Below the pieces are notes generated by a model. It was not told the DNA's origin. It was given only the letters and a program-made list of their open reading frames with translations, and made no database searches. This document shows positions 1-17,537 of a DNA stretch of 64,000 nucleotides, piece after piece. Source of the DNA: Sagittula stellata E-37 (GTDB lineage: Bacteria > Pseudomonadota > Alphaproteobacteria > Rhodobacterales > Rhodobacteraceae); the NCBI RefSeq assembly GCF_039724765.1, contig NZ_CP155729.1, positions 682,001 through 746,000 of the forward strand. The letters run 5' to 3'. Positions within the stretch are counted from its first letter, which is position 1. The number at the start of each line of letters is the position of its first letter. The position numbers and the translations under genes were made by a program.

Positions 1-1264
1 GCCCCTCGCGAGCGAGACGTCGAAGCGATGATCGACTCGTCCTGTGATTCCCTCCAAGTTCAAACCGCTCGAACCCGGATGCCGTAAGAATCGCGTCTAT
101 CGCCATCGGTCCCGCGTGGCCGAATTCACGCGCGCGGTAGTCGTAGATCGCCTGCGCGGGATCGCCGAAGACTGTGACGCCGCAGTCTCCAGGTAAGGCC
201 CCAATTAATTCCGTCAGCATATCGCGCCTCGGGCCAACAACGTCTTGCGCCTCGTCTACGATCAGATGCCGACGGCCATCCAGCCATCGCCGCGCGATTC
301 GGTCGTCCCGCGCGATGAGCGTAGTCGCCTGGCGCACCGTACCTTCATAGTCCGTTTCGCCTATGTCTTCGGTCGCATGGCTGACGAACAGGCCGGCGAT
401 CGAGTCAAGCGTGCGGATGTCTACCACTTCCCCGTCTATGACGGGCACACGCGCGAGGAGCTCTGCGACTGCGGTCCGTGAATAGGCAATGACGGAGATG
501 GCTGAGGGATTGAGACCGGACTCAAGAAGGCGGCAAATGCGTCGCTGGATCGTGAAGGTCTTGCCAGCGCCTGGTCCGGCGACGACGACAGCGCGAGCGT
601 CGGGCGGAAGGGCGACAACGCGATCCTGAGAGAAATCCGTCTGAGCCGACGACGCCATACCTGCCCATATCCGCAAGGGTCCGTTTAGCTCCTTCCTCGC
701 ATGCTCCGGCCAGTGCAGGGTCAGGGCCGACAAACGTCGGAGTTGAGCAGGCTTGCTACTCAAGTCGCCGTCCAGCAAAAAGGCGTCTTCTCCGCGTTCA
801 ATCATCGCGACCCAAGCCGAGGCGTCGTCGGACTGTACGTTCTGCGCGTTCCCAACGAACTGGTCGAGCGAGGAGGCCTCATATCGCCAAGAGGGTGGAC
901 CCAGCAGCTCTTCAAGCGTTTCCACGTCGTCTTTCAGACCGTCGTTTAATTCGGCAGACCCATTGGCAAGAGACCGTCCGGCTATGACGCTGACCGCTGT
1001 ATGCGCGACCACATAGACCGGCGTGTTGCGCGTGGTGTGGCGAACCACGACACAATGCTCCACAAGCGCTGCGAGCGCCTCGTGGAAGGCATCATCTATC
1101 TCCACGCCGATCATTTTGGCCAATTCGGGGGCCGTCGAGACACCAGCCCGCTTGAGCGCGTGGACCATTTCGTCCTGAAGTGTCGTGTCCTCCACCGATT
1201 GGGCACCGACGCCATCTGTTGAGGCCGTTAGGCTAAGAGAGCCATCGGAAAATATCCTTGACAT
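1..1264 (-). CDS. UvrD-like SF1 helicase, C-terminus beyond window edge
   Basis: The reading frame is open from an ATG at 1264 leftward to the window edge, giving about 421 visible residues. Helicase motifs appear in the order expected for SF1A: Walker A GPGAGKT at residues 230-236, Walker B LIVDEAQD at 334-341, the motif III-like GDPAQAIYDYR near 367-377, and a motif IV-like GGNHRTS close to the edge. The first 200 residues have no motif I recognise and may be a recognition domain. It should be an ATP-driven DNA or RNA translocase acting in the cytoplasm. It is transcribed divergently from the 830-aa gene, 76 bp away, inside a genomic island, which suggests a defence role. A second in-frame ATG at 658 sits just before the motor domain, but the upstream coding sequence is continuous, so I keep 1264. 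The missing part should hold motifs V and VI. Confidence 0.8.
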   Translation of the reverse strand, partial: MSRIFSDGSLSLTASTDGVGAQSVEDTTLQDEMVHALKRAGVSTAPELAKMIGVEIDDAFHEALAALVEHCVVVRHTTRNTPVYVVAHTAVSVIAGRSLANGSAELNDGLKDDVETLEELLGPPSWRYEASSLDQFVGNAQNVQSDDASAWVAMIERGEDAFLLDGDLSSKPAQLRRLSALTLHWPEHARKELNGPLRIWAGMASSAQTDFSQDRVVALPPDARAVVVAGPGAGKTFTIQRRICRLLESGLNPSAISVIAYSRTAVAELLARVPVIDGEVVDIRTLDSIAGLFVSHATEDIGETDYEGTVRQATTLIARDDRIARRWLDGRRHLIVDEAQDVVGPRRDMLTELIGALPGDCGVTVFGDPAQAIYDYRAREFGHAGPMAIDAILTASGFERFELGGNHRTSRSSLRRLAREG

Positions 1265-1340
1265 GACCTGCTCCCCGTTTGTCCCTCGTCCACAACCAGA
1301 GTCCTTGAGATGATATTGGCCGGAGTGGGGTTGGGCAAGC

Positions 1341-3833: not shown

Positions 3834-6700
3834 CTATGAACGCCTACCTGCGCATGGCCCACGGTGTGCAGGCGCTCCGCCGGCGCGTGGAGCGCGACCA
3901 CGCGCTTCTAGGCGCGCTAGGGGTCGCTGCAGATCCCTTGCCCCACCAAATGGCCAATGTGGCCCGAATTCTGGAGGCGCCCGAGCTGCGGCATCTGCTG
4001 GCCGACGGCGTGGGGCTGGGTAAAACCGTGCAGACCCTTATGATCTTAAATGCCCTGCGCCTCCAGGACCCGGACCATCGGACGCTGCTCGTGGTTCCAG
4101 ACCATCTGATCGGCCAGTGGCTACAGGAGTTGACCACTCGTGGCCACTGCGACGCGGCCTTCATCGACGGCAACACCTCGGAGGATGAGGCCGACGTCTC
4201 AGTCAGAATTATCAAGCCATCGTCGTTGTCGGTGCATCTGAGGCATGGGTCCGAACACTACGACCTTCTCGTCGTCGACGAGCCGCAGAGCTTTACAGTC
4301 GCACAGCGCGACACCCTAGCCCGCGCCCGACCCTTCGCCCAGTTTATTGCTTTGACGGCGACGCCGGAGCTTGGCCGACCGGAAATGCTGCATTGGTTCG
4401 TCTCCATGTTGGAGCCCCTTCGCACCGCTACTGCGGACGACCCAACGGAGGTCATCAGGCGGGACGAGGTGACAGCCGCGGCCTCGATCCGGTCCGCAGA
4501 CGAGGCTCGAACCGCGTTCGAGCGGGATGCATTCGGTCGACGCATCTGCCGGTGGTCGCGGGCCGATTTGCCAGACTACATGCCACGCCGCGACTACACG
4601 CGCGCCAACGTCCCGACTTTCGTCCGCGAGGCCGGTCTTGCCGCCACAGCGCGAAAGGTATTGGCGCGCACCGTCGGCAGCGATCCCATAAGCCGCGCAC
4701 GGGCGCTCCACCGCCTCGGCCGGGCGTCTCGCGACGCGCTTGCCGCCCTACCCAAAGATTTTTACCAGATGCCTGATAGTGCGGATGCGAACATTGGCGA
4801 CTCCCGGCTGGACGCGCTGCTCGACTTCTTAGCGTTGATCCGTGCGGAGGATGCTAACGCGCGTGTACTCGTGGTCGCGGGAGACAACGACACGATGGCC
4901 CGCCTGGAACGTATCTTGCCCGCCTACCTCCAGAGTTCTTCGGAAGGCGAACAGACAAGCATCGCACGTCTAGCGCGCGGTGAGCAGACCGCGGCCGATG
5001 CCGAGGCGGCAATCCGGCGCAACGTCGATACGATCGGCGATTTCGTGAGCGGCTCCGACGACATCCTACTGCTGGGCGATTGGGCCGAAGCCGGGCTAAA
5101 TCTCCATCATGGGTGCGAGACCATCGTCCTCTATTCCTGCCCTTGGACCGTCCGCAGTATCGATCAGTTGGTCGGTCGTCTGGACCGGCTACGACCGGGC
5201 GCGGCGCTGGCGGCGGAGGCGCGAAAGGATCAGGGGCGTATTCGCATACACGCCATCACATGGGCAGGGTCGCCCGAGTCAGACGTCGTCGATGGTCTCG
5301 AACGACTAGGAGTATTCGAGCGCCCAACACCTCCGATGAGCGTGGAGCGCGCCGAAAAGATCGAGAAGCACCTCGGCGCGCTGGCCGCGGGCCGGGAAGC
5401 ACCGGCAGCCTTGGCTGACTTGGAGCTGATGGGTGGGGACGGCACCGGCGAACTGGCAGCCTCCCGCCTCGCGCAGTACGACCCTCACACGGCCGACGCG
5501 GCCCGCGCGCGCCATCGCGCCATGTTGGAACGCAAAAGCCTGCCTGGCGGATTGCGGCCGTCGCGACCGGAACACGGCGCGCGCGGCCCAGAAGAGGCCG
5601 AGCTTCTTGCCTGGCTGGAGGCGCTCCGGGCGTCGAGCCTTTTAGACGTGAGGACAGGATGGAAGGACCAATCGGTAGACGGCGCACGCTACGGCAGTGT
5701 ATGGTACGCGGACCTCGGCGTGAAAGCCTCCGGCGCAACGCGTGACTTATCGTTGGAACTGCTCGAGCGTCGGAACGAAGGCGACCGACGTTCCAATCCA
5801 CGATCCGGTCAGGTCGCTTTTCTACACCACAGACGCCATCTTTCCGACCCTCCGCTCAGGATGGCCACGGACCGCGAAGGTGACGCCCGCCACTTGCACT
5901 TCATAGACCACGGCGACGAATTTCATGAACAGCTTTGCGCCGCGTTCCTGAATCTGGCCGATACCGCGCTCGAACGGGACAGAGTTCCGGTGGCCTCGGT
6001 GGGATATCCGCCCGGTCATTCCGCGCTGTCCGACGTTCGCCCCCTTCTTGTGACGGCAGCGGCATGCAGCCTGTCGCTGCCAATTGACGACGACGCCCGG
6101 TGGGACGGGCTGATGCACGGCCTGAATAGCGAGGACGCGCGCCATCTGCGTCGCTACGCTCGCGCCGGCTCACAGGCCGACGATCGCTGGCTGCGCCTCG
6201 CTGCGCCGACCCGGCTTATCCTGGAAGGACTGGCCATCAACCCTGAGGGGGGCGATCTTGAGCGGTTGCCGGCGTCCCACGTCACAGCCATTCTTGATCC
6301 ACGTGCTAAGACAGGGAGGCTCGTAGTGGGCGATCCCGTAACGCTGCCGGACACCATCCCCCGACTTCGGGAGGCCGCGATGCGTAGGCGGGCCAAGGCC
6401 CACGCCATCAAGCCGCACCTACCCGATCCGGGGCAGGTCGCACGCAGATCCGAACTGGTGACGGCGGAAGCGCACCGCGCGAAAAGTGAGGCGCAAGCGC
6501 GCGCAGCTGCTTTCCGTGCGCAGATTTCGTCCGACGAACGGCAGGCGCGCATCGCGGAAGCACGCGCCATGAGGGTGGAACGCGAGGCCGAGGCGCTGGG
6601 GGCTTTCGCATCGCGACGGCTCGAAAGGATTGTGGGGGAGGAGAAGCTGATTGATACGAGAGTTTGGCAGGTGATCCTGATTCCATTCGAGCGGATTTGA
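3830..6700 (+). CDS. SF2/SNF2-like helicase (956 aa)
   Basis: The first ATG with a good ribosome site (GGAGG at 3821-3825) is at 3830 and overlaps the previous stop. Motif I is DGVGLGKTVQ near residues 59-68, motif II is LLVVDEPQ near 146-153 (DEPQ instead of the common DEAH/DEAQ), and a third motif follows at FIALTATPE. The second RecA-like domain carries QLVGRLDRLRPG, the expected arginine-finger motif VI. The C-terminal 400 residues have no recognised fold and end in an Arg/Glu/Ala-rich segment (about 860-950) likely to form a coiled coil. The layout fits a DNA translocase of the SNF2 or DISARM-helicase type. It is convergent with the GHKL gene, with 86 bp between the stops. Translational coupling to the 830-aa gene implies a stoichiometric partnership. 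Confidence 0.85.
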   Translation: MTMNAYLRMAHGVQALRRRVERDHALLGALGVAADPLPHQMANVARILEAPELRHLLADGVGLGKTVQTLMILNALRLQDPDHRTLLVVPDHLIGQWLQELTTRGHCDAAFIDGNTSEDEADVSVRIIKPSSLSVHLRHGSEHYDLLVVDEPQSFTVAQRDTLARARPFAQFIALTATPELGRPEMLHWFVSMLEPLRTATADDPTEVIRRDEVTAAASIRSADEARTAFERDAFGRRICRWSRADLPDYMPRRDYTRANVPTFVREAGLAATARKVLARTVGSDPISRARALHRLGRASRDALAALPKDFYQMPDSADANIGDSRLDALLDFLALIRAEDANARVLVVAGDNDTMARLERILPAYLQSSSEGEQTSIARLARGEQTAADAEAAIRRNVDTIGDFVSGSDDILLLGDWAEAGLNLHHGCETIVLYSCPWTVRSIDQLVGRLDRLRPGAALAAEARKDQGRIRIHAITWAGSPESDVVDGLERLGVFERPTPPMSVERAEKIEKHLGALAAGREAPAALADLELMGGDGTGELAASRLAQYDPHTADAARARHRAMLERKSLPGGLRPSRPEHGARGPEEAELLAWLEALRASSLLDVRTGWKDQSVDGARYGSVWYADLGVKASGATRDLSLELLERRNEGDRRSNPRSGQVAFLHHRRHLSDPPLRMATDREGDARHLHFIDHGDEFHEQLCAAFLNLADTALERDRVPVASVGYPPGHSALSDVRPLLVTAAACSLSLPIDDDARWDGLMHGLNSEDARHLRRYARAGSQADDRWLRLAAPTRLILEGLAINPEGGDLERLPASHVTAILDPRAKTGRLVVGDPVTLPDTIPRLREAAMRRRAKAHAIKPHLPDPGQVARRSELVTAEAHRAKSEAQARAAAFRAQISSDERQARIAEARAMRVEREAEALGAFASRRLERIVGEEKLIDTRVWQVILIPFERI

Positions 6701-6786: not shown

Positions 6787-8334
6787 CTAGGACCTTGATA
6801 GCCGGTCAAGCATACGATCGATGAGGCTCTTCGCTGTCACTTGGTTGACTGAACAATCGTAAATCAGATCAAAGACTTCCTTGTAGGTGGCTCTTTTGCG
6901 TTCAGGCAGGTGCTCAAAAATGTCGCCTTCTGCTTTCCTCGCATGGGCATCGACTGCCTTCTCGATCGTTGTAAGGCGTGACCGCATTGCACGACGATCA
7001 ACATCCTCGAAAAGATCAAACTCCACAGCTTTTCTCATTTCGGAGAGAAGCGTGCCGATCTCAGCTCTGATTGATTTGGCAAACCGATCCGAAATCGCCC
7101 CTTGCTTAAGGACATCAAGTTTCTCGTAGACCTTGTCGGCCGCGAGCTCGAATGTCTTGAGGCGGTTTCGTTTTTGTGAGGAGACACGGCACTCGCGCGC
7201 CACTTCTGCGCCAACAGGTCTTAGGTGAGCGATAATATTGTCGAGATGTGCGTTGCTCTCGAATTCGTCGCGGCGGCCGTTCGGCACGACACGACCATCT
7301 AGTACGTGAACCTCTCCAATGGTCCAAGAACAGAAGCGATCCTCAGGGAATATCTCTAGGAACAGGCGATCATGGCCTACTTGGATATTGCCAACACGAG
7401 CGCGCAAACCCCGGACTCCCTGTGCCGCGGGAATCGCACCCTGGTAGTCATGATGGATGAGCCAGCCCACAGCGGCCGGCTCGCCATCGATGCTCTCAAT
7501 CTTGAAGGTCTTCAGGCTGCGCAGCGAAGCGCGCTTCGTGTCTGAGTATTCGACATGGTCGCGATAGGGCCGGTAGACCGGCTCCTCTGATCCGTTGATG
7601 TGAATTCGGTACGCCTTGCCAGCGCGGCCATGCTGAGAGAGCAGATCAGCGATCTCCTCACCGAAAGAGAATTCGGGCGAAAACGGACAGGGGCAAACCT
7701 GGCTCACGAAGCTCTCGATCTCAATCTCGTTGAGCAGTCTGTCATTGGCGATACGGCGCGGTTTGATGAGCTCGACCTCGAAGAAATGCGCTGGATAGTC
7801 GTCGGGTTCCAGACGCTTAAGCGTCACCGCCTCTCGAACAATGGAGCGCAGGTCGGAGTCCCTATCATTGGATGCCAGCATGCGCTTAACAACGCGTCCG
7901 TCCCACGTGGCCTCGAGAACCTTCGTGTCGCCCTTGGCGCGCGAGCGGAACACAAGCTGCTGAACATAACCGAGCGCAGAAAGGCGGCCGACGCCTCGAA
8001 ACCCACGTGCGTCCGTGCCTCGTTTATCACTTGCGCCAAAGGAGAGCATTCGCCTGGCGAAGGTCTGATTGGCCAAACCCGTGCCGTTGTCGCGGATCAC
8101 AACTCGGCGGTCGATGTGATCGAGATTAATCTCGATAAGGCCGTCGTTACTGGAAGCAAGAAGTCCGGCAGCTACCGCATCATCGACGGCATCGGTGGCG
8201 TTCTGAATGTACTCGCGGAAGATGGAGAGCGGATTGACATACATGGAGCTGCTAAGAAGCTCCAACACGTCCTTGCCGACGAAGATTTCTGCATCGTCAA
8301 AGCCTTCGTCATCGATATGCGCCGCCTCAGCCAT
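6787..8334 (-). CDS. GHKL (Hsp90/MORC-like) ATPase
   Basis: This 515-aa protein begins with a Bergerat-fold ATPase. The N-box is at E41-N45 (FREYIQNATDA), the G1 box IRDNGTGL holds D82, G84 and G86, and the G2 box GFRGVGRLS covers residues 111-119. After a middle domain resembling the Hsp90/MutL transducer region, the C-terminal 150 residues are charged and helical. Proteins of this kind dimerise on ATP and act as clamps. MORC-like GHKL ATPases paired with SNF2 motors and nuclease-fold proteins are known from predicted restriction-type systems (work of Iyer, Abhiman and Aravind). It is the last gene of a minus-strand run and follows the radical-SAM gene by 21 bp, so it is very likely co-transcribed. 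No membrane segment or signal is seen. An ordinary HtpG is unlikely: the protein is shorter and diverges after the ATPase domain. Confidence 0.85.
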   Translation of the reverse strand: MAEAAHIDDEGFDDAEIFVGKDVLELLSSSMYVNPLSIFREYIQNATDAVDDAVAAGLLASSNDGLIEINLDHIDRRVVIRDNGTGLANQTFARRMLSFGASDKRGTDARGFRGVGRLSALGYVQQLVFRSRAKGDTKVLEATWDGRVVKRMLASNDRDSDLRSIVREAVTLKRLEPDDYPAHFFEVELIKPRRIANDRLLNEIEIESFVSQVCPCPFSPEFSFGEEIADLLSQHGRAGKAYRIHINGSEEPVYRPYRDHVEYSDTKRASLRSLKTFKIESIDGEPAAVGWLIHHDYQGAIPAAQGVRGLRARVGNIQVGHDRLFLEIFPEDRFCSWTIGEVHVLDGRVVPNGRRDEFESNAHLDNIIAHLRPVGAEVARECRVSSQKRNRLKTFELAADKVYEKLDVLKQGAISDRFAKSIRAEIGTLLSEMRKAVEFDLFEDVDRRAMRSRLTTIEKAVDAHARKAEGDIFEHLPERKRATYKEVFDLIYDCSVNQVTAKSLIDRMLDRLSRS

Positions 8335-8355
8335 GTCTCCGCTCCCGTTTCTCTC

Positions 8356-9984
8356 TCACGCGTAAACCTGCGTGATGTCTTTCAGCTGTGTCTTCGTATT
8401 CGTGGTCGGCTGCACATCTTCATCGGTCAGGCCGGCATCTTCGACTCGCTCATCCTCAGGAACCAGATAGGCGTTGATATCTTCAACACGCCGGCGCTTT
8501 TGAGCCTCCCAAATCCGCGCCTCATCTGTTTTGGACATGGGTACAAAGAACCGGGCAGCTTCTCGTAGCTTGCCGGCGGCAAGCTCGTTCAGGTCACGCG
8601 CATAGTCGTTCTTATCGCGCGTACACAGGAAGCCAAGAAGCTCGGTGCGCTCATCGTCCGAAAGCGCCCTCATCGTCGCTTGGAATTCATCGAACTCAGG
8701 CCGCCCGTCGTACTGTTCATACCAGTAACGATTGAAGATGTAGTGATGCGGACGAAGCAAAATGCTTTCGAACTCGTCATAGGTGTCGCCAAACGCCTTC
8801 CGGAAGAATTCAGGTGCACCACTGACGATACCGTGCGTTGCCTGCAAGATCACCTGCATCGAGCGCAGGTAATATGAATTCCAATTCTTTCCGACATGTC
8901 CGCGATCAGGCCGAGTGACCGGTTGGTAGCGCATCGGGAAAGAAAAGATGCGTATGTTGAGTTCCTCATTGAGTGTCACGTTCAGCCGCATACGCTCAAA
9001 TAGATCAGCCGGGCTGTCATTGAAATTATAGAGCATGTAGTTGGAAAGCTCTGTCAGTCCGGCATCCGCCGAATAGCGGATCGCTTGGGCGTAAGGCTTC
9101 TTTACACCTAGATGGTCGAAGGCGATGCGAAGCGGCTTGAGCGCAATCCGTGCTAGCTGCTGCAAGTACATTGGGTCCTTGCACAGGATGCGCGCATCGA
9201 CGCCTTGGTTGAAGTCTACGCGCCGCTGCAGTTCGTACCGTCCCCGTTTGAGCTTGGCGCCTCGCTCAAATCCAAGATCGATAATTTCAGCGATGATTTC
9301 TTTAAAGTTGGCCGAGGCGACCACGTTGTTGTCCATCAGGATCAGGTCACGTTTCTCGCCGTAGAGCTTACTCACCCCTTGGACGACTTCGCTCAGCGAA
9401 TTAGTATCGCGCTGACCACCTTCGAGCTTCGGGACGCCGCAGAATGCGCATTTTCGCACGCACCCTCGTGAGGCATAAGTGAAGTATGCGTCGTTCACAG
9501 GATACTGGTACTCGATGTGATCGAGGATGCTGTAGTCGGGTACTAGGTCCTCGATGGGCTTTCCGTTTACGTCATCGGCATAGAGTTCTTCGTCAAATGG
9601 GTCGAGGCCGAGAGAGACGGCCGGCGCCTCGCCCAGGAGACCCTTGATGAAGCGCACGCCACGCCAGCGCGGTTCGTCGACAAAGTTCTCATGCATCAGC
9701 GAGGCCGCGATGCCGCCGACGAAGACGCGGTGGGCCTGGCCGCCCACGAGGTCGAGGGCATAGTCGATGCTGCGGGCAGTGCGCTCCCACTCGAACGAAA
9801 AGAGTGTCGTGATGTACACGCGGTCCCAGGCCGTCTCATAGGCCGAGGGGTCTTCGCCCTTCACGAACCGAACATTGTCCCGCTTGCCGTTCGGGCCGTG
9901 ATACTGGGCAATCTTCATCAGACCCAGCGGCGGGTACTTGTTCCTGTAGCCCGGTTCTACAAGAAGGATGTTCTTGTTGGCCAT
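8356..9984 (-). CDS. Radical-SAM enzyme with N-terminal B12-binding-like domain
   Basis: This 542-aa protein has the layout of cobalamin-type radical-SAM enzymes. The first 130 residues resemble a B12-binding Rossmann domain (ILLVEPGYRNKYPPLGLMKIA, then FVGGIAAS near 88-95), although the usual DxHxxG cobalamin motif is not evident. The radical-SAM iron-sulfur motif CxxxCxxC is at C175, C179 and C182 (GCVRKCAFC). A C-terminal helical region of about 200 residues is unassigned. Such enzymes methylate, thiolate or rearrange unreactive carbon positions. The gene sits between a ParB-fold gene 254 bp upstream and the GHKL ATPase gene 21 bp downstream. A radical-SAM enzyme amid SNF2, ParB and nuclease-fold genes suggests modification of a nucleic acid or a nucleotide-derived signal. 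The substrate cannot be read from sequence. Confidence 0.85.
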   Translation of the reverse strand: MANKNILLVEPGYRNKYPPLGLMKIAQYHGPNGKRDNVRFVKGEDPSAYETAWDRVYITTLFSFEWERTARSIDYALDLVGGQAHRVFVGGIAASLMHENFVDEPRWRGVRFIKGLLGEAPAVSLGLDPFDEELYADDVNGKPIEDLVPDYSILDHIEYQYPVNDAYFTYASRGCVRKCAFCGVPKLEGGQRDTNSLSEVVQGVSKLYGEKRDLILMDNNVVASANFKEIIAEIIDLGFERGAKLKRGRYELQRRVDFNQGVDARILCKDPMYLQQLARIALKPLRIAFDHLGVKKPYAQAIRYSADAGLTELSNYMLYNFNDSPADLFERMRLNVTLNEELNIRIFSFPMRYQPVTRPDRGHVGKNWNSYYLRSMQVILQATHGIVSGAPEFFRKAFGDTYDEFESILLRPHHYIFNRYWYEQYDGRPEFDEFQATMRALSDDERTELLGFLCTRDKNDYARDLNELAAGKLREAARFFVPMSKTDEARIWEAQKRRRVEDINAYLVPEDERVEDAGLTDEDVQPTTNTKTQLKDITQVYA

Positions 9985-10238
9985 GGTCTGCCTCGATTCG
10001 TGTTCTGTTCCACCTTACCTACCGCAGGCCAGCTTGTCGATCTAGCAGTGGTCACTTCGTAGCTCAGTCTGTGTATGGACCTGACGGAACGGTGTTCGCA
10101 ACCGAATCCTGATCGCCCGGGCACTATATCGTGTAGGTGCATAGATCGCTGGCACAAAATGCAAGCGGTGTAGCGCCCAACTGGGCGGGTAGGCCAACGG
10201 CAGGCATGCAGGCACCGTGACGTGGACCTGACCGGATC

Positions 10239-11240
10239 CTATTGCGACGGTGATTTCGCCTTCTCGAGCTGCTCTCGTATTGTTGCGATTCTGGATTCGA
10301 TCTTCTTAAGTTCAAACTCTATTTTTTGACGAACTCCCGGATTATGCTCAACAATCTCATCGAGCACATCCGGTTCGCAAATCCAAGAGCGGAAGCGCTT
10401 TACCTTGCTGAGTTCGACGCTGTCGCCGCCGGCATGCCTGGCGTCGGTGTAGGCTTCCTCGACATCCACATCCCCCTTCGAAAATTTCTTTAGGATCTGG
10501 GGCGTCTCACAGATAACCGGGAGCTGGTCGCGAATGTCTACAGCGCGGACTTTTCCAGACTTGATAAGCCTTACGACCTTTTGCTCGAAGTCCGCTATCT
10601 CATCGCGGGCCTTCTTAATTTTTCTAGACTTCAAAAACTCGTCATAGTGGCTCCAGCGTTCCCGGCTTTCGTCCTTGTTGTCCTTCATGAACTGGAAGAC
10701 ATTGACCAGGTGTCTGACATGTTGCGGACTAACCCCAAGCTCGCGGGCTAAGTCTGGAATGTCTATTTTTTGATCGACATGGCGACGGTACACGAAGCCG
10801 GCTTTCTCATACGGTGCCCAGTCTTTCTTCCCTTTGACGTGGTACTGCCCGAGCATCGCGTAGACATCTGCGTCGCTTATGTCGGAAGGCAGAATGCGGC
10901 AACGAACCAGGTTCCACTTGGCGGGGTTGTCAGCCGCCAAGGAGCGGTAGGCGGCAAGGCGGCTGTTACCTTCGATGACGACAAAGTCACAGTCGCGAAC
11001 AATGATGGGGTCGATGAGCCCGCCATTGTCGAGAATATCATGCCTAAGCGCTCTGACATGCTCCAGCTTCAGCATCGAACGATAGATCGAATCCTGGTCT
11101 GGTTCAGCCTCGCTGCGGTCTAGAAGGGAGTAAACTCTCGGGTTGTCAGGCCAGAAGTTCAAGTCTTCATGCGGTATGTCGCGTGTAACCGCAGGTATCT
11201 TCTTCTGCCGGATCAGGATGTAATCTTCGTCCGGACTCAT
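10239..11240 (-). CDS. ParB/Srx-fold nuclease-like protein, copy 1
   Basis: A 333-aa protein with a ParB/sulfiredoxin-like N-terminal domain. The phosphate-binding signature VVIEGNSRLAAYR lies near residues 87-99, preceded by the typical segment GGLIDPIIVRD. A helix-turn-helix-like segment follows (DIPDLARELGVSPQHVRHLV, about 160-179), as in ParB and its nuclease relatives. The C-terminal 60 residues look like a coiled coil (FELKKIESRIATIREQLEKA). Its ATG overlaps the stop of the SNF2 gene by four bases, so the two are translationally coupled. In plasmid and phage contexts ParB/Srx proteins are CTPase clamps, nucleases or ATP-dependent phosphotransferases; which applies here is unknown. The remaining similarity to the second ParB-like protein in the operon is confined to the fold and the EGN(S/T)RL motif. 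Confidence 0.85.
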   Translation of the reverse strand: MSPDEDYILIRQKKIPAVTRDIPHEDLNFWPDNPRVYSLLDRSEAEPDQDSIYRSMLKLEHVRALRHDILDNGGLIDPIIVRDCDFVVIEGNSRLAAYRSLAADNPAKWNLVRCRILPSDISDADVYAMLGQYHVKGKKDWAPYEKAGFVYRRHVDQKIDIPDLARELGVSPQHVRHLVNVFQFMKDNKDESRERWSHYDEFLKSRKIKKARDEIADFEQKVVRLIKSGKVRAVDIRDQLPVICETPQILKKFSKGDVDVEEAYTDARHAGGDSVELSKVKRFRSWICEPDVLDEIVEHNPGVRQKIEFELKKIESRIATIREQLEKAKSPSQ

Positions 11241-12715
11241 TCTGCCTCCGCAACGGGGTTCAAAATTTCAGCGACTGCACGACCGAAATCATAGTCGGCG
11301 GCCTTCTCATAGTCTTCCTTGCATACGTCAGACTGCAGCAGTTGTGCGGCCAGACGCTTTGCACTTAGCAGGCTGTCCACCCAGCAATCGATCGTATCAT
11401 CGCAGATGAGGTTCCATATGTAGCACTCGCGCTTCTGCGAGATACGGTGAATTCTGTCCTGTGACTGAAGATAGTCATCCAGACTGAAAGACCTATCATA
11501 GTAGATGGCATGGTTGGCTACGGTCAGTGTCAATCCCTCCTTCGCGGCACCCGGTGTCGCCACAAGAACGCTTATATCTTCGCGGTTCTTGAAGTCTTCG
11601 ATGGCCCGGTTTCTTACCTCTATCGGTAGTTCACCGTGCACTCTGACCGCACCGTACTCCGCCAAGCGGCGACACAGCCATTCGGCGTTCCGCACGAACG
11701 AAGTCCAAACGATAACCTTGCTACCGTCGTCGGTTGCCTCGCGCACAAGACGGTTCAGCTCAGCGACTTTGCCAGGCTCCTCCTTGTAGTTCTCATCCAC
11801 CAGCGCCGGATTGGACGTAACCTGGACCAAGCGAAGCAAACGCTTTAGGACGGCTTCAGCGTCATCCTCGGCCAGTTGCCCGCCCTGCATGACTTCCGCG
11901 CGTGCTTGCTCGCGATATGTGTCGTAGAGCTTTGCCTGATGCGGTGCCATGTTGGTGGTAACAGAGCGCACCACCTTGTCAGGGAGTTCGATACCGGTTG
12001 ATTTTTTTGTTTCGCGGATGGAAAACGCCCGAAGTTTCTCAAATACAGACGCGAGGGCATCCGCGAATTTCTTCTGGCGCTCTGGGCTATGGTGAAGGTC
12101 GTTGTCCAATGACAGGTCTGATCGGAATGCTTCGAAGTCTTCGCCGAGCGCTTCGCCCCCATCGAGAAAGAAGACTTGTGACCAGATATCCTCGGGCCGG
12201 TTGGCCACAGGCGTTCCTGTCATGATGACCCGCCGCGCAAAGCCTTCCCGAAGTTCATGAAACGCCTGCGTCAGCGCCGCTGAGGGGTTCTTGATCTTCT
12301 GCGCTTCGTCAAGGATCACGCCTACTCTGCGCGTCTTCAAGAACATTTCAAGGCGCGGCTGTTCGGAGCGCACAACCTCGAAGTGTCCAAGCACAATTCG
12401 GGCAGAAGAGTTGAAAACGAAGAAGTTGTGCTTACGATCCTGGCTGAGGATTCCCGGTTTTATGTGCGTGTGACTGGCCAGCTCTTGCCGCCAGTTTTCT
12501 ACAAGCGCGCGCTTCGTGATGATCATCACCGTATCGACCGTCCTCTCGGCCAGCCAATGCAAGGCAAGATCGACTGCAATCTTAGTCTTTCCGAGCCCTT
12601 GCTCGTGAAAGAGGGCTGCGTATTCCAACCCCTTTACGGCCTCGACCGCATCAAGCTGGTAAGGAAACGCCTTAAACCTGGCTGTGAGGTTCAATCTTGG
12701 GTCCGGGCGCAGCAT
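11237..12715 (-). CDS. SNF2-family ATPase/helicase
   Basis: A compact 492-aa SNF2 motor. Motif I is HEQGLGKTKIA at about residues 37-47, motif II is ILDEAQKIKNP at 134-144, and motif III is IMTGTPVANRPED. The second lobe has the typical GLTLTVANHAIYYDRSFS and the motif VI sequence QSQDRIHRISQKRE. It is close in size and shape to minimal SMARCAL1/phage-type SNF2 proteins that are often paired with small nucleases. It follows the nuclease-like gene by two bases and overlaps the next ParB gene, so it sits in the middle of the coupled block. It probably translocates along double-stranded DNA and drives the nuclease or ParB partners. I see no fused recognition domain, so target choice must come from a partner. 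Confidence 0.9.
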   Translation of the reverse strand: MLRPDPRLNLTARFKAFPYQLDAVEAVKGLEYAALFHEQGLGKTKIAVDLALHWLAERTVDTVMIITKRALVENWRQELASHTHIKPGILSQDRKHNFFVFNSSARIVLGHFEVVRSEQPRLEMFLKTRRVGVILDEAQKIKNPSAALTQAFHELREGFARRVIMTGTPVANRPEDIWSQVFFLDGGEALGEDFEAFRSDLSLDNDLHHSPERQKKFADALASVFEKLRAFSIRETKKSTGIELPDKVVRSVTTNMAPHQAKLYDTYREQARAEVMQGGQLAEDDAEAVLKRLLRLVQVTSNPALVDENYKEEPGKVAELNRLVREATDDGSKVIVWTSFVRNAEWLCRRLAEYGAVRVHGELPIEVRNRAIEDFKNREDISVLVATPGAAKEGLTLTVANHAIYYDRSFSLDDYLQSQDRIHRISQKRECYIWNLICDDTIDCWVDSLLSAKRLAAQLLQSDVCKEDYEKAADYDFGRAVAEILNPVAEAE

Positions 12716-12717
12716 AT

Positions 12718-13125
12718 CTAGTAGCCTGTATCAATCGTCAGAATGTGCGATCCTACGGCTCCGTAGGCGGCCTCAAGTTCACGCACCAGCTTCGTAGCGG
12801 TGGGCCTGGCAATGAATGGAACGGCCAAGTAGAAGAACGCTGCCTCATGAAACGCAAGGTAGCGCACGAAAGAGGCAAGTTGCCGATGGGAGCGAGGTGA
12901 TATCAGGTCCGCCTGCGTTTTGGCCTCTCCGATAACGACGAATGTGCGGGGCACATCCTGAGCGTATAGGTCGGGTAAATGGCCGCCAATGCGCTGCGGG
13001 CGCTCGCGCCCCATCTTCTGATCATCCAGATATAACGCCAAGTTCCCGGCTCCACCGTGCTTCTTTCTGACGTATGCCGTCAGCCTGGAGACCAGTAGAG
13101 CGTGCTCGTCGGACTCACCGGACAT
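12718..13125 (-). CDS. Small PD-(D/E)XK-like nuclease
   Basis: A 135-aa protein whose centre reads HLPDLYAQDV followed about ten residues later by FVVIGEAKTQ. The spacing D-x(n)-E-x-K on adjacent predicted strands is the core of the PD-(D/E)XK nuclease fold (as in VRR-NUC and Holliday-junction resolvase relatives). No other domain fits in the length. It starts at the ATG overlapping the last base of the ParB copy 2 stop and ends two bases before the SNF2 start. Pairs of a small VRR-NUC-type nuclease and an SNF2 helicase are common in phages and mobile elements, which supports the assignment. The nuclease call rests on motif reading, so it is moderate; an inactive structural relative is possible. 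Confidence 0.65.
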   Translation of the reverse strand: MSGESDEHALLVSRLTAYVRKKHGGAGNLALYLDDQKMGRERPQRIGGHLPDLYAQDVPRTFVVIGEAKTQADLISPRSHRQLASFVRYLAFHEAAFFYLAVPFIARPTATKLVRELEAAYGAVGSHILTIDTGY

Positions 13126-14135
13126 CAGCCAGCATCAACTATCAATGATTGCAGGGTCTGCAGAGCATCTATCGCCGCTTCAACGTGCCTCAATGTGGCT
13201 CCGTCATCTTCCCTGAACGACTGAATTTCCGGCATCGAGTACGCTTTGCTGGCAATCGCAGCGGCCAGTTGTGCGAGGGATGCCTTCTGAAGTTCGACGT
13301 TGTCCGTCTCGCGATCGAGCGCCCTGATCGCCATCTTCATTCCGTCTTTGAGAAAGATGGCCTTTGCGTTCTTGTCCTTCAGCACTGCAGGAAGTTGCCT
13401 CACCTCCTGCAAGGTGTTGATACGGCGATCCTTAATCCACTCAGCAAAGTCCGTGCCCGAAAAGCCGTTCATGAGGATAGCCTCCTGAACGCGAGGGCTC
13501 TGGTACTCGACGAAACCGGAAAATCGCTCCGGATCGAACTCGTCCGCTTCACACAACGGGCGATAGAACTCCTCCATGTCGGCGTAGGCCTGAATCGAGC
13601 GCGTTACGTCCCTCTGATTGCCCCCGCATAGAGCGACAATTCTCTCAAGAGGCATCAACTCCACGTTCTGTAGCTCGTGCAGATATCGCGCTTTAGAGTA
13701 GGCATCCCACGGGCGCGGCCCGACAAGATGAGCCTGAAGACGAATGGCATCGATGCTTTCGGGTTCTAGGCGGTTGTGTACCAGAGCGGGTATCTTCGAC
13801 CAGTCTCCGGTAGCACCCTTCTTGTGGAGATCGCGATAAATCCACAGCCGCGTGTTGCCCTCGATGCAGACGAGCGAGCCGTCTTCTCGCCTATCCACAA
13901 TGATCGGCTGGCGAATACCGCGATTGGCAATGATGGACTCTCTTAGCCTGGAGGGCGTTGTGGTGTCGGCCAGAGCTGTTGGGCTATCACTCGATGGCGC
14001 GTTCAGAGCAAGGCCTATATGGTGATCACCGATCACGCCCTCATCGAATATCTCAAGAAATCGGCGAATTCTTGGGTTCGTCGTATCAAGCTTTACTTGA
14101 TCGATCGGTAGGTTCTGAAATTCGCCGGATGTCAT
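13125..14135 (-). CDS. ParB/Srx-fold nuclease-like protein, copy 2; first gene of the six-gene run
   Basis: A 336-aa protein with a ParB-like N-terminal domain starting QNLPIDQVKLDTTNPRIRR, then GIRQPIIVDRR and the signature LVCIEGNTRLWIYR near residues 85-98. The opening NLPIDQVKLDTTNPR is the classic ParB N-terminal strand. A possible HTH follows (LERIVALCGGNQRDVTRSIQ). The ATG at 14135 is preceded by a strong GGAGGAAG ribosome site, which decides the start. It is the first large gene of a minus-strand block in which consecutive genes touch or overlap, so the promoter should lie at 14136-14470. It could bind a specific DNA site or nucleotide and load the SNF2 motor. Divergence from the other ParB copy suggests that the two have different jobs. 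Confidence 0.85.
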   Translation of the reverse strand: MTSGEFQNLPIDQVKLDTTNPRIRRFLEIFDEGVIGDHHIGLALNAPSSDSPTALADTTTPSRLRESIIANRGIRQPIIVDRREDGSLVCIEGNTRLWIYRDLHKKGATGDWSKIPALVHNRLEPESIDAIRLQAHLVGPRPWDAYSKARYLHELQNVELMPLERIVALCGGNQRDVTRSIQAYADMEEFYRPLCEADEFDPERFSGFVEYQSPRVQEAILMNGFSGTDFAEWIKDRRINTLQEVRQLPAVLKDKNAKAIFLKDGMKMAIRALDRETDNVELQKASLAQLAAAIASKAYSMPEIQSFREDDGATLRHVEAAIDALQTLQSLIVDAG

Positions 14136-14470: not shown

Positions 14471-15625
14471 TTATCCCAAGGATTGCCTGAGGTTCTGCGC
14501 GACCGCATCGGCCGCCATCCGCACCGGCTCGGCGGCGAGGTGGGCGTAGCGGGCCGTGGTCTGGACCTGCGTGTGCCCGAGCAGCTTGCCGATCATGGGC
14601 AGGCCCTGACCCGAGGCGACGGCGGTCGACGCGAAGGTGTGCCGCAGGTCATGGATGCGGACGTCCTTCACCCCGGCGCGGGCGCGAACGCGCTGCCAGA
14701 AGGGCTGGAGATCGCTCAGGCGCTTGCCCGGTAGGATGCCGGTGATGACCCACGGGTTCTCGTCGATGTGCTGAGCGTCGCGGAGCAGGTCGACGACGGG
14801 CTGTCCGAGATGGACGACCTTGGCGCCCGACTTGGAATCTGGCAGGCGCAGAACGCGCTCGGCCAGATCGACGTGGGCCCATTTCAGCGTCATGATCTCG
14901 TTCAGCCGACAGCCGGTCAGGATCAGCAGGCGGGCGGCGAGAATGGCCGATGGCAGTTCGATCCCCTCCGCCTCCATCTCGCGCAGCACCTCGCCGATCC
15001 GGCGCAGTTCCGCCGCGCTGAGAAAGCGTTCGCGCTTCTCCTCGGGATACTTCCGGATGTGCTTTCGCGGGTTGGTGCCGTCCGGACGCAGGCCCCACAT
15101 CTCGGCGAGGCCGAACATCTTCGAGACCACTTCGAGGCGGCGGTTCGCCTGATAGGGGATGTGGCGGAGGTCGTGGTGGAACTTCGCCACGTCCGCCCGG
15201 GTGATGCCCGTGACCGTGAGCTGGCCGAGCGCGGGCAGGATGAAGCGTTCGAGGTTGCGGCGGTACTCCTTGGCCGTGCTCGCCTTCACGCGGATCGCGA
15301 TGTGCTCCTTGTCGAACCGCTCCGCCAGCTCCTTCACCGTGATCGCCTTGCGCCCAGCGTCGCGTTCAGCGGCGGGGTCCTCGCCATTGCGTGCGGCGGC
15401 GAAGATGGAGATGGCGCGGTTGCGCGCCTGCTCGCAGGTCAGCACCGTGCTGGGCCCGAGGCTGATCCGCCGGGACCGGCGTCCGGCGCGATACTGGACC
15501 ACGTAGCCCTTGCGCCCGCTCGGCAGCACCCGTAGCCCGAAGCCAGGGATCTCGCTGTCCCAGACGAAGTATTCGGTGGAGCGGGCTTCCGCGGTGTCGA
15601 CGAGGCGTTTGGTGATCCTGGGCAT
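14471..15625 (-). CDS. Tyrosine recombinase (island integrase)
   Basis: A 384-aa P4-type integrase. Residues 1-90 form the DUF4102-like arm-binding domain (DSEIPGFGLRVLPSGRKGYV), followed by a SAM-like core-binding domain at about 95-185. The catalytic domain carries all expected residues: R240 (TGCRLNE), K265 (DSKSGAK), H325 and R328 (HDLRHTF), H351 (LGHTQ) and the nucleophile Y360 (ARYAHL). It should therefore be active. Enzymes of this family integrate islands into the 3' part of tRNA genes, matching the initiator-tRNA fragment at 17472-17515. Its third-position GC is high, like the chromosome, whereas the cargo to its left is more AT-rich. The ATG at 15625 starts MPRITKRLVD, a normal integrase N-terminus. 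Confidence 0.93.
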   Translation of the reverse strand: MPRITKRLVDTAEARSTEYFVWDSEIPGFGLRVLPSGRKGYVVQYRAGRRSRRISLGPSTVLTCEQARNRAISIFAAARNGEDPAAERDAGRKAITVKELAERFDKEHIAIRVKASTAKEYRRNLERFILPALGQLTVTGITRADVAKFHHDLRHIPYQANRRLEVVSKMFGLAEMWGLRPDGTNPRKHIRKYPEEKRERFLSAAELRRIGEVLREMEAEGIELPSAILAARLLILTGCRLNEIMTLKWAHVDLAERVLRLPDSKSGAKVVHLGQPVVDLLRDAQHIDENPWVITGILPGKRLSDLQPFWQRVRARAGVKDVRIHDLRHTFASTAVASGQGLPMIGKLLGHTQVQTTARYAHLAAEPVRMAADAVAQNLRQSLG

Positions 15626-15845
15626 GGCGCTCTTCGGTGGTTCTTTCGCCGTTCCACAGTGCCGGAGTGTGGGCGGAATTCAACGAACACATTGAAATTG
15701 CGAAGAAAAAGGAAATGCCTCGCGTTTCCGCGCAAGGCGTTTCGGCGCGCTGATGCGGGAAATCGACGAGCCCAGCGAATCAGAACGCAGGTTCCGGTGC
15801 CCGCGGACCGTTGATAGGCTCGGTGAAAAAGAAACTGGCGATCCG

Positions 15846-17285
15846 ATGGCTTCCAAGACCACCCTGAATGCGAAGAACCTCGAAGCGCTAGGCGCCGAGC
15901 GCCTGGCGCAATTGCTGATCGAGGTCAGCACCGGCAACGCGGCGGCCAAGCGCAAGCTCCGGCTCGCGCTGGCCGGCGCCCAGAGCCCGAGGGAGGTGGC
16001 GTGGGAGATCACCAAACGCCTGACCAGCATCGCTCGCGCGCGCAGCTTCATCACCTGGAAGAACCGCAAGGCGCTGGTCACGGATCTCGAAACCCAGCGC
16101 CGCGCCATCGTTGAGCAGATCGCGCCGGCCGATCTGGATGAGGCGCTGGCGCTCATGTGGCGGTTCATGGCGCTCGCCAGGCCGGTGTTCGAGCGCTGCG
16201 ACGACTCCAGCGGCACCGTCATCGGAATCTTCCACCAGGCCTGCGCCGATCTGGGCCGGCTCGCCGCGAAGGTCCGGCCGGACCCGAAGGCGCTCGCCGA
16301 CGCTGTTCTCGATGCGCTGCAGGACAACGGCTATGGCCAGTATGACGGCCTGATCGGCATCATGGCTCCGGCGCTCGGCGCCGAGGGGCTGGCGACCCTG
16401 AAATCGATGGCCGAAGAACTCGGTCGTTCGTCCGTGCCGGTGCCGCCGAAAGACCAATGGAGAGCGGTGGGCTGGGGCACGGGCGGCACCACGTATGAGC
16501 ACGAGATGCGGGCGCGTGGGCGCACCAGCACGGTCGCCATGGCGCTGAGGAACATCGCCGACGCGCAGGGAGACGTCGACGGCTTCATCGCCCAGTACGA
16601 TCCGAAGACCCGCAAGGTGCCGCAGATCGCGGCCGAGATCGCGCAGCGCCTGCTCGCGGCCGGCAGGGCGGGTGAGGCGCTGGGGTTTCTCGAGCGCGCG
16701 GAGCTCGGCGACGGGTTGCGGGTTCCACTGGCATGGCAGGACATCCGCCTGCAGACGCTGGAGGTGCTGGGTCGCGGCGAGGAGGCGCAGGCGTTCCGGT
16801 GGGACTGTTTCGAACGCACGCTCTCCGACAGCTACCTGCGGGCGTACCTCAAGCGGCTGCCCGACTTCGACGACATTGAGGCCGAAGAGCGGGCGATGGC
16901 GCAAGTCATGGCCTATCCGAGCCTTCTTCACGCCCTGCAGTTCTTCCTCGACTGGCCGGCGCTGGATCGCGCCGCCGAGATCCTTCTGGCCCGGCACGAC
17001 GAGATCGACGGGGATCACTACGAGTATCTCGCCCCCGCGGGGGAGGCCCTGTCAGAGCGTCATCCGCTGGCCGCGACGCTGGTGCTCCGCGCGATGATCG
17101 ATTTCACGCTCACCAGATCCCGTGCGAAGCGATATCGCTATGCCGCCGAGCACGTGGTCTCCTGCGCTCGGCTCGCGCGGGACATCCCGGACTTCGGCGC
17201 GTTCGAGACGCACGACGCATATGTCGCCCGGCTGAAGGAGGAGCATGGCAGGAAGTTCGGCTTCTGGTCGCTCACCGCCGCCTGA
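15846..17285 (+). CDS. DUF6880 family protein
   Basis: A 479-aa protein starting MASKTTLNAKNLEALGAERL, which I recognise as the conserved opening of the DUF6880 family found in many alphaproteobacteria. It is mainly helical with repeat-like segments (for example AAGRAGEALGFLERAE and VLGRGEEAQAFRWDCF) suggesting TPR- or HEAT-like helical pairs. No catalytic motif or membrane segment is seen. An upstream in-frame start at 15753 exists, but family members begin at MASK, so 15846 is chosen; its ribosome site is weak. The gene lies between the integrase and the attachment site and is thus island cargo. The function is unknown. Confidence 0.8.
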   Translation: MASKTTLNAKNLEALGAERLAQLLIEVSTGNAAAKRKLRLALAGAQSPREVAWEITKRLTSIARARSFITWKNRKALVTDLETQRRAIVEQIAPADLDEALALMWRFMALARPVFERCDDSSGTVIGIFHQACADLGRLAAKVRPDPKALADAVLDALQDNGYGQYDGLIGIMAPALGAEGLATLKSMAEELGRSSVPVPPKDQWRAVGWGTGGTTYEHEMRARGRTSTVAMALRNIADAQGDVDGFIAQYDPKTRKVPQIAAEIAQRLLAAGRAGEALGFLERAELGDGLRVPLAWQDIRLQTLEVLGRGEEAQAFRWDCFERTLSDSYLRAYLKRLPDFDDIEAEERAMAQVMAYPSLLHALQFFLDWPALDRAAEILLARHDEIDGDHYEYLAPAGEALSERHPLAATLVLRAMIDFTLTRSRAKRYRYAAEHVVSCARLARDIPDFGAFETHDAYVARLKEEHGRKFGFWSLTAA

Positions 17286-17471: not shown

Positions 17472-17515
17472 TCATAACCTGAAGGTCGTAGGTTCAAATC
17501 CTACCCCCGCAACCA
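17472..17515 (+). repeat. Attachment-site repeat: 3' part of initiator tRNA-Met
   Basis: The 44 bases from the anticodon loop (TCATAACCTGAAGG) through the T-arm (GGTTCAAATCC) to the acceptor end and CCA match the 3' part of tRNA-fMet (CAU). The 5' half is absent: no GCGGGG acceptor strand or D-arm precedes it within 80 bases. This is the fragment that remains on one side when an integrase recombines in a tRNA anticodon loop; the intact gene should lie at the other end of the island, left of this window. I list it as a site, not as a functional tRNA. Confidence 0.85.
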
Positions 17516-17537
17516 AATTTCCCTAAATATACTGAAT

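Follow-up and report, generated by a model that had tools for sequence, protein, structure and literature searches.

What do six neighbouring minus-strand genes on a genomic island of Sagittula stellata E-37 do, and do they belong together at all? An earlier note had taken them for one six-gene operon and a possible new defence system. We followed them up in the whole 64,000-nucleotide stretch that contains them (the window) and among their relatives in genomes, plasmids and viral contigs. They belong to a widespread, exchangeable gene set in which a radical SAM enzyme and an Hsp90-like ATPase are combined with DNA-cutting partners. The set probably serves bacteria as a defence, not yet described, against incoming DNA.

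Genes, motifs and the tRNA-Met island

All six open reading frames were found where the earlier note had placed them and with the spacing it described (Table 1): ParB1 and NUC overlap by 1 nt (13125), NUC and SNF2 are 2 nt apart, SNF2 and ParB2 overlap by 4 nt (11237-11240) and 21 nt separate rSAM from GHKL. They fall into two cassettes, a core of rSAM and GHKL (6787-9984) and a ParB-NUC-SNF2-ParB cassette (10239-14135). A small ORF in the gap between them, c56, was rejected as a gene, being seen solely in the window and in its 97% copy L001. A sigma-70 scan gave 4 sites versus 2.8 expected from shuffles.

Table 1. Positions of the six genes, of the island features and of the neighbouring cluster
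Feature	Position	Strand	Size or match
GajB/UvrD-like helicase gene start, DISARM/ARMADA-like cluster	1..1264	(-)	extends beyond window
830-aa protein, neighbouring cluster	1341..3833	(+)	no Pfam or PADLOC match
SNF2-type helicase (DpdE/BrxH-like), neighbouring cluster	3818..6700	(+)	
GHKL, core Hsp90-like ATPase	6787..8334	(-)	515 aa
Radical SAM enzyme (rSAM), core	8356..9984	(-)	542 aa
Gap between core and ParB cassette	9985..10238		254 nt
ParB2, ParB superfamily (NPR, EGNxR)	10239..11240	(-)	333 aa
SNF2-family motor	11237..12715	(-)	492 aa
NUC, small PD-(D/E)xK-type nuclease (predicted)	12718..13125	(-)	135 aa
ParB1, ParB superfamily (NPR, EGNTR)	13125..14135	(-)	336 aa
Tyrosine recombinase of the island	14471..15625	(-)	PF00589, 1.1e-21
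DUF6880 gene, within the island	15753..17285	(+)	PF21810, 1.2e-192
Right end repeat, 3' part of tRNA-Met	17472..17517	(+)	46 bp
Left repeat copy	G000:C1:670734-670779		left of window

The genes do lie on a genomic island, as had been claimed. It measures 28.8 kb, both its ends were located as a 46-bp repeat of tRNA-Met, and the tyrosine recombinase is encoded inside. The genes at 1-6700 were dismissed as parts of the rSAM system, since they belong, along with DrmA, DrmB and the GajB-like gene, to a DISARM/ARMADA-like cluster (the GajB family match, 1.4e-23, was obtained on the Jannaschia copy, L001:18710-20968). The same trio adjoins the rSAM-GHKL core in locus L046 too.

The protein types named in the earlier note were all borne out. 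The SNF2 motor matches PF00176 (4.8e-29) and PF00271 (5e-18) in Pfam, as well as phrog_62, a family of long phage helicases (4.7e-96). Pfam matches of the two ParB proteins are weak (E = 0.016 and 0.024), yet NPR and EGNxR are invariant in 23 rows; ParB2 also matches TIGR00180, under the family cut-off (E = 1.4e-4). Although NUC has no match in Pfam or PADLOC, its motif P51-D52 ... E67-A68-K69 does not vary across the 24 different sequences compared, the window's own among them, which predicts a nuclease of the PD-(D/E)xK type. No sequence-specificity domain was recognised among the six proteins. In their ParB and SNF2 parts, the latter by its phrog_62 match, they resemble phage polyvalent proteins of the DarB/DdrB type, where passages of PMC5512222 describe both domains as common; in the window, by contrast, SNF2 and ParB are encoded by short genes of their own, linked to a nuclease gene and to the rSAM-GHKL core.

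The radical SAM protein matches PF04055 under the Pfam curated cut-off (E = 2.5e-4); despite this, the cysteines of its CxxxCxxC cluster motif (C175/C179/C182) are kept without exception in the 27 aligned rows. Its N-terminal region is like B12-type radical SAM proteins through weak matches to several such models only, and Pfam gave no B12-binding domain.

GHKL matches HATPase_c_3 (E = 1.7e-9) and, across profile positions 24-149, the HtpG N-domain (E = 1.1e-12). The N, G1 and G2 boxes of the Bergerat fold mark it as a GHKL/Hsp90-like ATPase; E41/N45/D48, D82/G84 and G111/G114/G116 are invariant in 26 rows, with a conserved P-N-G-R-R-D stretch. GHKL shares its Bergerat-fold motifs, and also its transducer Arg region, with HtpG, BbrUII/HgiDII-type restriction proteins and paraMORCs, which according to passages of PMC3710099 occur in R-M neighbourhoods. 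Its matches to HtpG and HSP90 models are limited to the N-terminal part and far below cut-off, the BbrUII match reaches 15.9 bits, and unlike these proteins GHKL is dedicated to an rSAM partner. One branch holds 64 rSAM-adjacent GHKLs.

Co-occurrence and exchange of the cassettes

Relatives of rSAM were found at 69 genome loci, and 48 genome loci have 6 kb on both sides. These 48 are the count to trust, because among the 31 loci typed as 'neither' in the wider set are distant rSAMs as well as fragments and short contigs; L006 was typed there as an SNF2 locus solely on account of an SNF2 that is unrelated (18-23% identity), the locus having no ParB. Near-copies among the 48 are L023/L024/L027, L028/L031, L035/L038 and L001/window. 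GHKL directly follows rSAM at 47 of the 48 loci. The ParB cassette is present at 25. Another 12 have the alternative c6, a nuclease-DGQHR fusion that keeps a conserved D/E motif; neither is present at 11 and both at none. The naive value for this mutual exclusion, 1.9e-5, is computed on related loci. L008, which lies outside the 48 on a contig of 7.6 kb, may hold both: besides c6 it shows a ParB gene beginning where the contig is cut off. Strand and side of the ParB cassette relative to the core differ among loci. The proposed operon stands as a non-random unit, but it consists of two cassettes (4 + 2 genes) whose arrangement is not fixed, the six-gene set being one of several configurations of a wider modular family. 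Loci devoid of the ParB cassette number 23 of the 48; in 13 of their genomes that were checked, a ParB1 match was absent genome-wide in 12, and the 13th contains another, complete system.

The association is reciprocal. Of the 72,556 plasmid records, 12 carry a full-length rSAM and GHKL is found in exactly those 12, which also include every record with ParB1 (7) or NUC (6); full-length c6 is found in the other 5, and no record without rSAM carries the ParB cassette or full-length c6. Starting from ParB1 in viral contigs (six of the eight were also recovered by the rSAM scan), rSAM lay within 6 kb in 8/8 and GHKL in 7/8. Genes occurring separately and at random, which the earlier note had named as contrary evidence, are not what we see, the ParB/nuclease cassette being found only with the core (7/7 plasmids and the viral contigs above). 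Islands do gather unrelated genes, but a mere chance neighbourhood is hardly credible against such counts in plasmids, genomes and viral contigs.

The family is spread patchily. Of 385 genomes sampled in the class, 2 have it (one of these a fragment), yet 85% identical relatives occur in MAGs labelled Acidobacteriota and Binatota. Carriage on a tRNA-Met island, on plasmids typed as conjugative (7 of the 12 rSAM records) and on 19-127 kb IMG/VR contigs would also suit a weapon used chiefly between elements, one that keeps out plasmids or islands or secures its own maintenance (addiction) in the manner of selfish R-M genes, instead of host antiphage defence. We regard this as quite unlikely, as the island bears a second, DISARM/ARMADA-like cluster and mobile elements carry many defence systems. 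The mobile island and the adjoining defence-type cluster were counted in favour of the defence reading.

Relatives carry further partners. Configurations of the wider family comprise DGQHR, the nuclease-DGQHR fusion, PIN+GHKL2, TcmP/HerA/GHKL and NurA/HerA/GHKL. Beside the core, every one of the 25, 12 and 11 loci encodes a nuclease or a DNA protein of DGQHR/HerA type, be it PD-(D/E)xK with SNF2 and ParB, c6, PIN_8 (18 of the 48 loci), NurA/HerA-like or HerA. L002, whose rSAM is 90% identical to that of the window, has PIN+GHKL as its sole partner. Plasmid pNL1 of Novosphingobium aromaticivorans DSM 12444 has the arrangement PIN-GHKL2-DGQHR-rSAM-GHKL-c6. A DGQHR/DndB-like gene, c2, which matches the DpdB model (1.1e-14), is the next gene upstream of rSAM in 40 typed loci; in 26 the two genes share exactly 8 nt. 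The window has neither c2 nor the PIN nuclease with a second GHKL, both frequent among relatives, and no DndB match was found elsewhere in its genome by a search whose control was positive in 2 of 14 genomes.

Comparison of 4-fold sites between L014 and L016 gave 54-65% identity for c2, SNF2 and NUC versus 44% for rSAM and 29% for GHKL. The former are thus more recently related, and cassettes have been exchanged between cores. In four rhizobial pairs the rSAM protein is 96-97% identical while its 4-fold sites are just 37-46% identical. So far diverged, these sites rule against pure recombination as the source of the high identity and point to purifying selection, accompanied by cassette exchange. 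The partners are 71-79% identical in the fully saturated pair L019-L082. To judge from these sequences, rSAM may act on an invariant substrate while its partners change faster.

Comparison with known systems

The earlier note had seen no match of the set to Dnd, Ssp, Dpd, BREX, DISARM, Zorya, Druantia or Hachiman. No system in PADLOC-DB matches the six-gene set, and no description of it was found in the literature searched. Dpd is defined by the DpdA transglycosylase, and the DpdA model is absent from the matches of the six (best 25 of 34 for SNF2). Many relatives are Dpd-like in having a DGQHR/DpdB-like protein next to the presumed modifying enzyme, an SNF2 motor and a nuclease. However, DpdE is the sole Dpd model matched by the six, and a full-length DpdE was rejected because only the helicase part aligns (e.g. 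726-1156 of 1176); to our knowledge, neither radical SAM nor GHKL is a Dpd component. Dnd and Ssp, defined by DndC/DndD/DndE or the Ssp core, are echoed in relatives by DndB-type DGQHR (c2, c6) and a HerA (c10) resembling part of DndH (9e-48), but the six proteins match no Dnd or Ssp model.

Zorya, defined by the ZorA/ZorB motor with ZorD, is matched in the SNF2 part of ZorD only (5.7e-45), with ZorA/B absent. DISARM is defined by DrmA and DrmB, which sit in the neighbouring cluster; the six show DrmD-type helicase similarity only. BREX, defined by PglZ, BrxC and PglX, is echoed only by BrxH-type helicase similarity of SNF2 (1.5e-17). ParB2 is weakly like the PADLOC candidates PD-Lambda-5_A (E = 3.9e-5) and PDC-M38A (7.8e-7), in the ParB part only, their remaining components having no counterpart; PD-Lambda-5 membership was rejected, full-length PD-Lambda-5_A and its partner being absent. 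From the same PADLOC comparison, membership of Dnd, Dpd, Zorya, DISARM and BREX was rejected as well.

What the core and its cassettes may do

We tentatively regard the set as a restriction-type system, modular and mobile, that is directed at incoming DNA. Most likely, the core of rSAM and Hsp90-like ATPase would put a chemical mark onto host DNA or a DNA-bound nucleotide, and the two ParB-type DNA/NTP-binding proteins, the SNF2 translocase and the PD-(D/E)xK nuclease would load on DNA, travel and cut where the mark is absent. We infer strongly that the system is one of defence, moderately that rSAM acts on DNA, and weakly the order of marking, reading and cutting. The best argument for DNA modification is c2 upstream of rSAM, given that a 2026 paper describes DpdB, a ParB-like ATPase, as driving modified-base insertion into DNA (passages of PMC12839542). 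The window's lack of c2, and of a DndB match elsewhere in its genome, counts against the DNA-mark reading. So do the lone PIN+GHKL partner of L002, the PIN and TcmP partners in general, which would also fit RNA targets, the lack of a recognised sequence-specificity domain, and the nearest named families of rSAM, all weak matches, which judged from their names presumably act on proteins, RNA, lipids or cofactors.

The core might instead modify a protein or RNA (tRNA, ribosome), its partners being toxins or effectors restrained by it or freed on infection, as in abortive infection. The best named family match of rSAM is RimO (5.8e-5, weak; PDB match E = 0.0017). This and the frequent PIN_8 partner agree with such a role, but both main cassettes carry DNA-type nuclease motifs with SNF2 or ParB/DGQHR, atypical for RNA targeting, and we think it rather improbable.

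Alternatively, the core would make a small molecule (an altered, viperin-like nucleotide or a signal), which would either stop the invader from replicating or activate the ParB/nuclease cassette. ParB-superfamily proteins bind and hydrolyse NTPs (passages of PMC12839542 and PMC5512222). The conservation of rSAM fits an invariant small substrate, and some small distant rSAM relatives are located among phage replication genes. These distant, mostly phage rSAMs showed no consistent partner in Pfam searches of ten neighbours (five without a match, the others a second radical SAM, terminase, UvrD, phosphoesterase and VapE); the rSAM search gave at least 8000 matches at E<=0.001, a measure of abundance and not a total. 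Still, the six proteins show no recognisable cyclase or kinase domain and none of a nucleotide-binding effector, and viperins are single-enzyme systems, whereas GHKL is dedicated to rSAM. A small-molecule product is therefore unlikely.

Returning to the DNA-mark reading, its fullest form is conceivable, if somewhat doubtful: rSAM driven by an Hsp90-like ATPase would install a novel DNA mark read by exchangeable nuclease cassettes (ParB-REase-SNF2-ParB, REase-DGQHR, NurA-HerA, HerA-TcmP, PIN-GHKL), a new modular class of self/non-self DNA recognition in Pseudomonadota, Acidobacteriota, Binatota and Verrucomicrobiota, with a distant form in Bacillota. We know of no restriction-type system that marks DNA by radical chemistry; if the core does so, this would be new chemistry for such systems. 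It would also mean a plug-and-play logic, in which one extremely conserved enzyme pair works with alternative nuclease cassettes. The findings suggest a joint role for several plasmid genes annotated as 'radical SAM', 'DGQHR' or 'ATP-binding', and offer, on environmental plasmids such as Novosphingobium pNL1, a testable family that may lead to a new DNA mark or an antiviral small molecule.

Six genes on a tRNA-bounded island

The six minus-strand reading frames described in the earlier note were all recovered at exactly the proposed positions. Neighbours from ParB1 to ParB2 overlap, touch or lie 2 nt apart, and a 254-nt gap separates these four genes (the cassette) from rSAM, a radical SAM enzyme, and GHKL, an Hsp90-like ATPase (together, the core). 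For ParB1 and ParB2, Pfam returned two very weak ParB_N matches.

Features of the island (window positions; G000:C1, contig of the window's own genome)
Feature	Position	Strand	Assignment
ParB1	13125-14135	-	ORF
NUC	12718-13125	-	ORF; Pfam: no match
SNF2	11237-12715	-	Pfam SNF2, 4.8e-29
ParB2	10239-11240	-	ORF
rSAM	8356-9984	-	Pfam radical SAM, weak, 2.5e-4
GHKL	6787-8334	-	Pfam GHKL ATPase, 1.7e-9
Tyrosine recombinase	14471-15625
46-bp direct repeat	17472-17517; G000:C1:670734-670779		3' part of tRNA-Met gene
Second cluster	1-6700; G000:C1 about 675960-681009 (L071:7960-13009)

Judged by their sequences, all six genes appear intact, since motifs are kept in rSAM, GHKL, NUC and both ParB proteins. 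The rSAM CxxxCxxC motif (C175, C179, C182) is present in 27 of 27 aligned rows, P51-D52 ... E67-A68-K69 of NUC in all 24 different sequences, window counted, and NPR and EGNxR are common to ParB1 and ParB2 (23 rows). GHKL, which matches HtpG at profile level (1.1e-12), retains the ATP-site residues E41, N45, D48, D82, G84, G111, G114 and G116, and its alignment contains a P-N-G-R-R-D stretch, which we take to sit where Hsp90 has its middle-domain arginine. The phage family nearest to SNF2 is the helicase part of phrog_62 (4.7e-96), a very long protein family (profile of 1881 positions).

The genomic island proposed earlier is correct and now has ends. The tRNA-Met repeats, at the left copy of which ARAGORN calls a complete tRNA-Met, delimit 28,784 bp, in which DUF6880 and a second cluster accompany the recombinase and the six genes. 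G+C content is 54-56% across 7001-14000 versus mostly 60-67% in the flanks (2-kb windows), with a second dip near 55-57 kb of the window. The island recurs in Jannaschia seohaensis (L001), where 19.2 kb match at 95% identity up to the repeat. By count of match rows, the repeat region is matched in 34 of 41 genomes, most matches presumably being tRNA genes themselves; in several genomes (e.g. G406:C31, G009:C1) they are paired or tripled some kb apart, as if many islands used this site.

The second cluster encodes DrmA (4e-191), DrmB (8e-75), a GajB/UvrD-like protein extended at its N terminus (assignment tested on the L001 copy), an SNF2 of BrxH/DpdE-like type and an 830-aa protein assigned to no family, in which no methyltransferase motif was seen. 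This gene mix resembles DISARM and also the ARMADA systems of PMC12458937. Relatives of the last three proteins adjoin the rSAM core in Aureimonas (L046).

Core and cassette as separate units

An rSAM scan of 84,980 genomes gave 69 loci from Pseudomonadota (mainly Alphaproteobacteria), Acidobacteriota, Binatota, Verrucomicrobiota and, distantly, Bacillota. Their genes were typed by all-against-all comparison and again with HMMs; 68 rows (67 loci and the window) have an rSAM ORF, L066 and L069 lacking one. Among 48 full-flank loci (at least 6 kb on either side, rSAM >400 aa), GHKL lies directly behind rSAM in 47 and directly ahead of it in the sole exception, L065. The cassette is present in 25 of the 48 (24 by clustering alone, which missed L036), and in some cassettes the ParB genes number three and the nuclease (c11) is diverged. 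Twelve others carry c6, a ~780-aa nuclease-DGQHR fusion related to DndB (4.4e-11), with a conserved R-Q-x-D ... V-E-C-T nuclease-like motif and DGQHR in 16 sequences.

Cassette and c6 never occur together in the 48 (naive hypergeometric 1.9e-5, the loci being related and some near-copies). On a 7.6-kb contig outside this set (L008), c6, rSAM and GHKL are followed at the cut end by the start of a ParB gene (L008:7140-7637, HMM 2.4e-41), which counts against strict exclusion and is the sole hint that the two may coexist. The remaining 11 loci all carry another partner set beside the core: TcmP-like, GHKL and HerA (L012, L051, L067), DGQHR and c12 (L029, L067), NurA/HerA-like and GHKL (L054, L065), or PIN and GHKL (L002, L023, L024, L027, L046). 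The DGQHR gene c2 is found near rSAM in 26 of the 48, and PIN_8 with a second GHKL in 18. The window locus has neither, and searches of its own genome revealed no DndB elsewhere and no such PIN, the search for the latter having no positive control.

The TcmP-like set, whose HerA resembles that of DndH, also adjoins the core in L044 and is possibly a second radical-SAM defence module; a DUF5131-type gene lies nearby in L012, L044 and L051, and the L051 copy matches the PADLOC candidates PDC-M30B and PDC-M41B. NurA-like nuclease, HerA-like ATPase and GHKL adjoin rSAM in L054, L065, L096 and L097; Marinitoga camini virus 1 (L085) has rSAM, HerA and NurA, but the stretch covered contains no GHKL. 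In L113, where a short rSAM (452 aa) precedes the cassette and GHKL was not detected, a degraded or variant system is possible.

The six genes had been read as one operon. The four genes from ParB1 to ParB2 are indeed contiguous, but the system is two cassettes, set apart by the gap and varying in placement. SNF2 and rSAM were typed together in 44 loci (43 once the false L006 is removed), with the cassette upstream and on the rSAM strand in 29 (28 without L006), upstream but on the opposite strand in eight, downstream opposite in five and downstream same in two. The rSAM tree (80 rows, 71 with known state, six classes; 22 of 76 inner branches weak) requires at least 24 state changes. Between the window and L087, rSAM and GHKL are 91% and 89% identical, but SNF2 only 52% and NUC 34%. 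At 4-fold sites, L014 and L016 share 54-65% identity in c2, SNF2 and NUC versus 44% in rSAM and 29% in GHKL; cassette and core thus differ in history. A GHKL tree (FastTree) sorts by partner, with one branch apiece for 64 proteins with rSAM, 18 with PIN and five with TcmP/HerA, while the two with NurA/HerA need two changes.

Reciprocal searches

Because the loci had been chosen by rSAM, searches were also started from other genes. Among 72,556 plasmid records, full-length rSAM occurs in 12 (8-9 distinct cases, allowing for re-sequenced plasmids), four more being distant partial matches. GHKL was found in exactly these 12, ParB1 in seven and NUC in six of them and nowhere else, and full-length c6 in the other five. 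Partial c6 matches occur in 29 further records; the 25 of these that were listed all bear DGQHR annotations, in some cases of the phosphorothioation or Dpd type. The c2 search gave the 12 and one weak record, and the PIN search the 12 (one over just 27% of the query) and three partial others; on a Roseomonas plasmid, PIN lies far from rSAM.

On viral contigs, ParB1 alone retrieved eight loci (six also recovered by rSAM), with rSAM within 6 kb in all eight and GHKL in seven. A search of 385 genomes from the class to which the window belongs placed rSAM in the window's genome and, as a fragment together with GHKL, in one more, besides five weak matches (E 1e-6 to 9e-4); ParB1 proper occurs in the window's genome only, with five weak others. 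Of the 23 full-flank loci that lack the cassette, 13 had their whole genomes searched for ParB1, which gave no match in 12; the remaining genome, that of Azospirillum TSO22-1, carries a second complete system (L037).

Proposed mechanism and relation to known systems

Dnd and Dpd DNA-modification systems include DGQHR/DndB-type proteins. In 40 typed loci c2 lies directly upstream of rSAM, and in 26 of these the two genes overlap by exactly 8 nt. Nuclease, SNF2 and ParB fit a DNA-scanning cutter. Given these DNA-cutter parts and the upstream DGQHR gene, we favour a scheme in which the core would put a mark on DNA and the cassette would read it. Alternatively, the core may yield a nucleotide product or act on an RNA or protein substrate, or the system may serve exclusion between elements. 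All genes of L019 and L082 are equally diverged at 4-fold sites (34-41%), and protein identity is 96% for rSAM versus 71-79% for its partners. This pattern is consistent with an enzyme whose substrate does not vary and whose partners face changing pressure. The spread is smaller between the window and L004 (rSAM 87%, SNF2 83%, GHKL 77%, NUC 69%).

Six distant rSAM relatives examined on phages and plasmids (~300 aa or partial) lend the DNA mark weak support: four have annotated DNA methyltransferases no more than 6 kb away and two have none that close, and such genes are common on phages and plasmids. Many viral contigs (L153-L185) carry distant, mostly short rSAMs (about 280-330 aa) with a DFNQGxD-type motif, some near SNF2, UvrD or VapE genes. 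According to PMC12839542, DpdB is a ParB-like ATPase driving insertion of the modified base, though dispensable in some clusters.

PADLOC-DB 2023 shows similarity for SNF2 and ParB and two very weak GHKL matches (E 0.018 and above); NUC and rSAM drew no match. Among the matches listed from open-licence full-text literature, no description of the gene set was found; it may bear a name elsewhere. We file the system as new, of the broad restriction-type kind and outside the named families.
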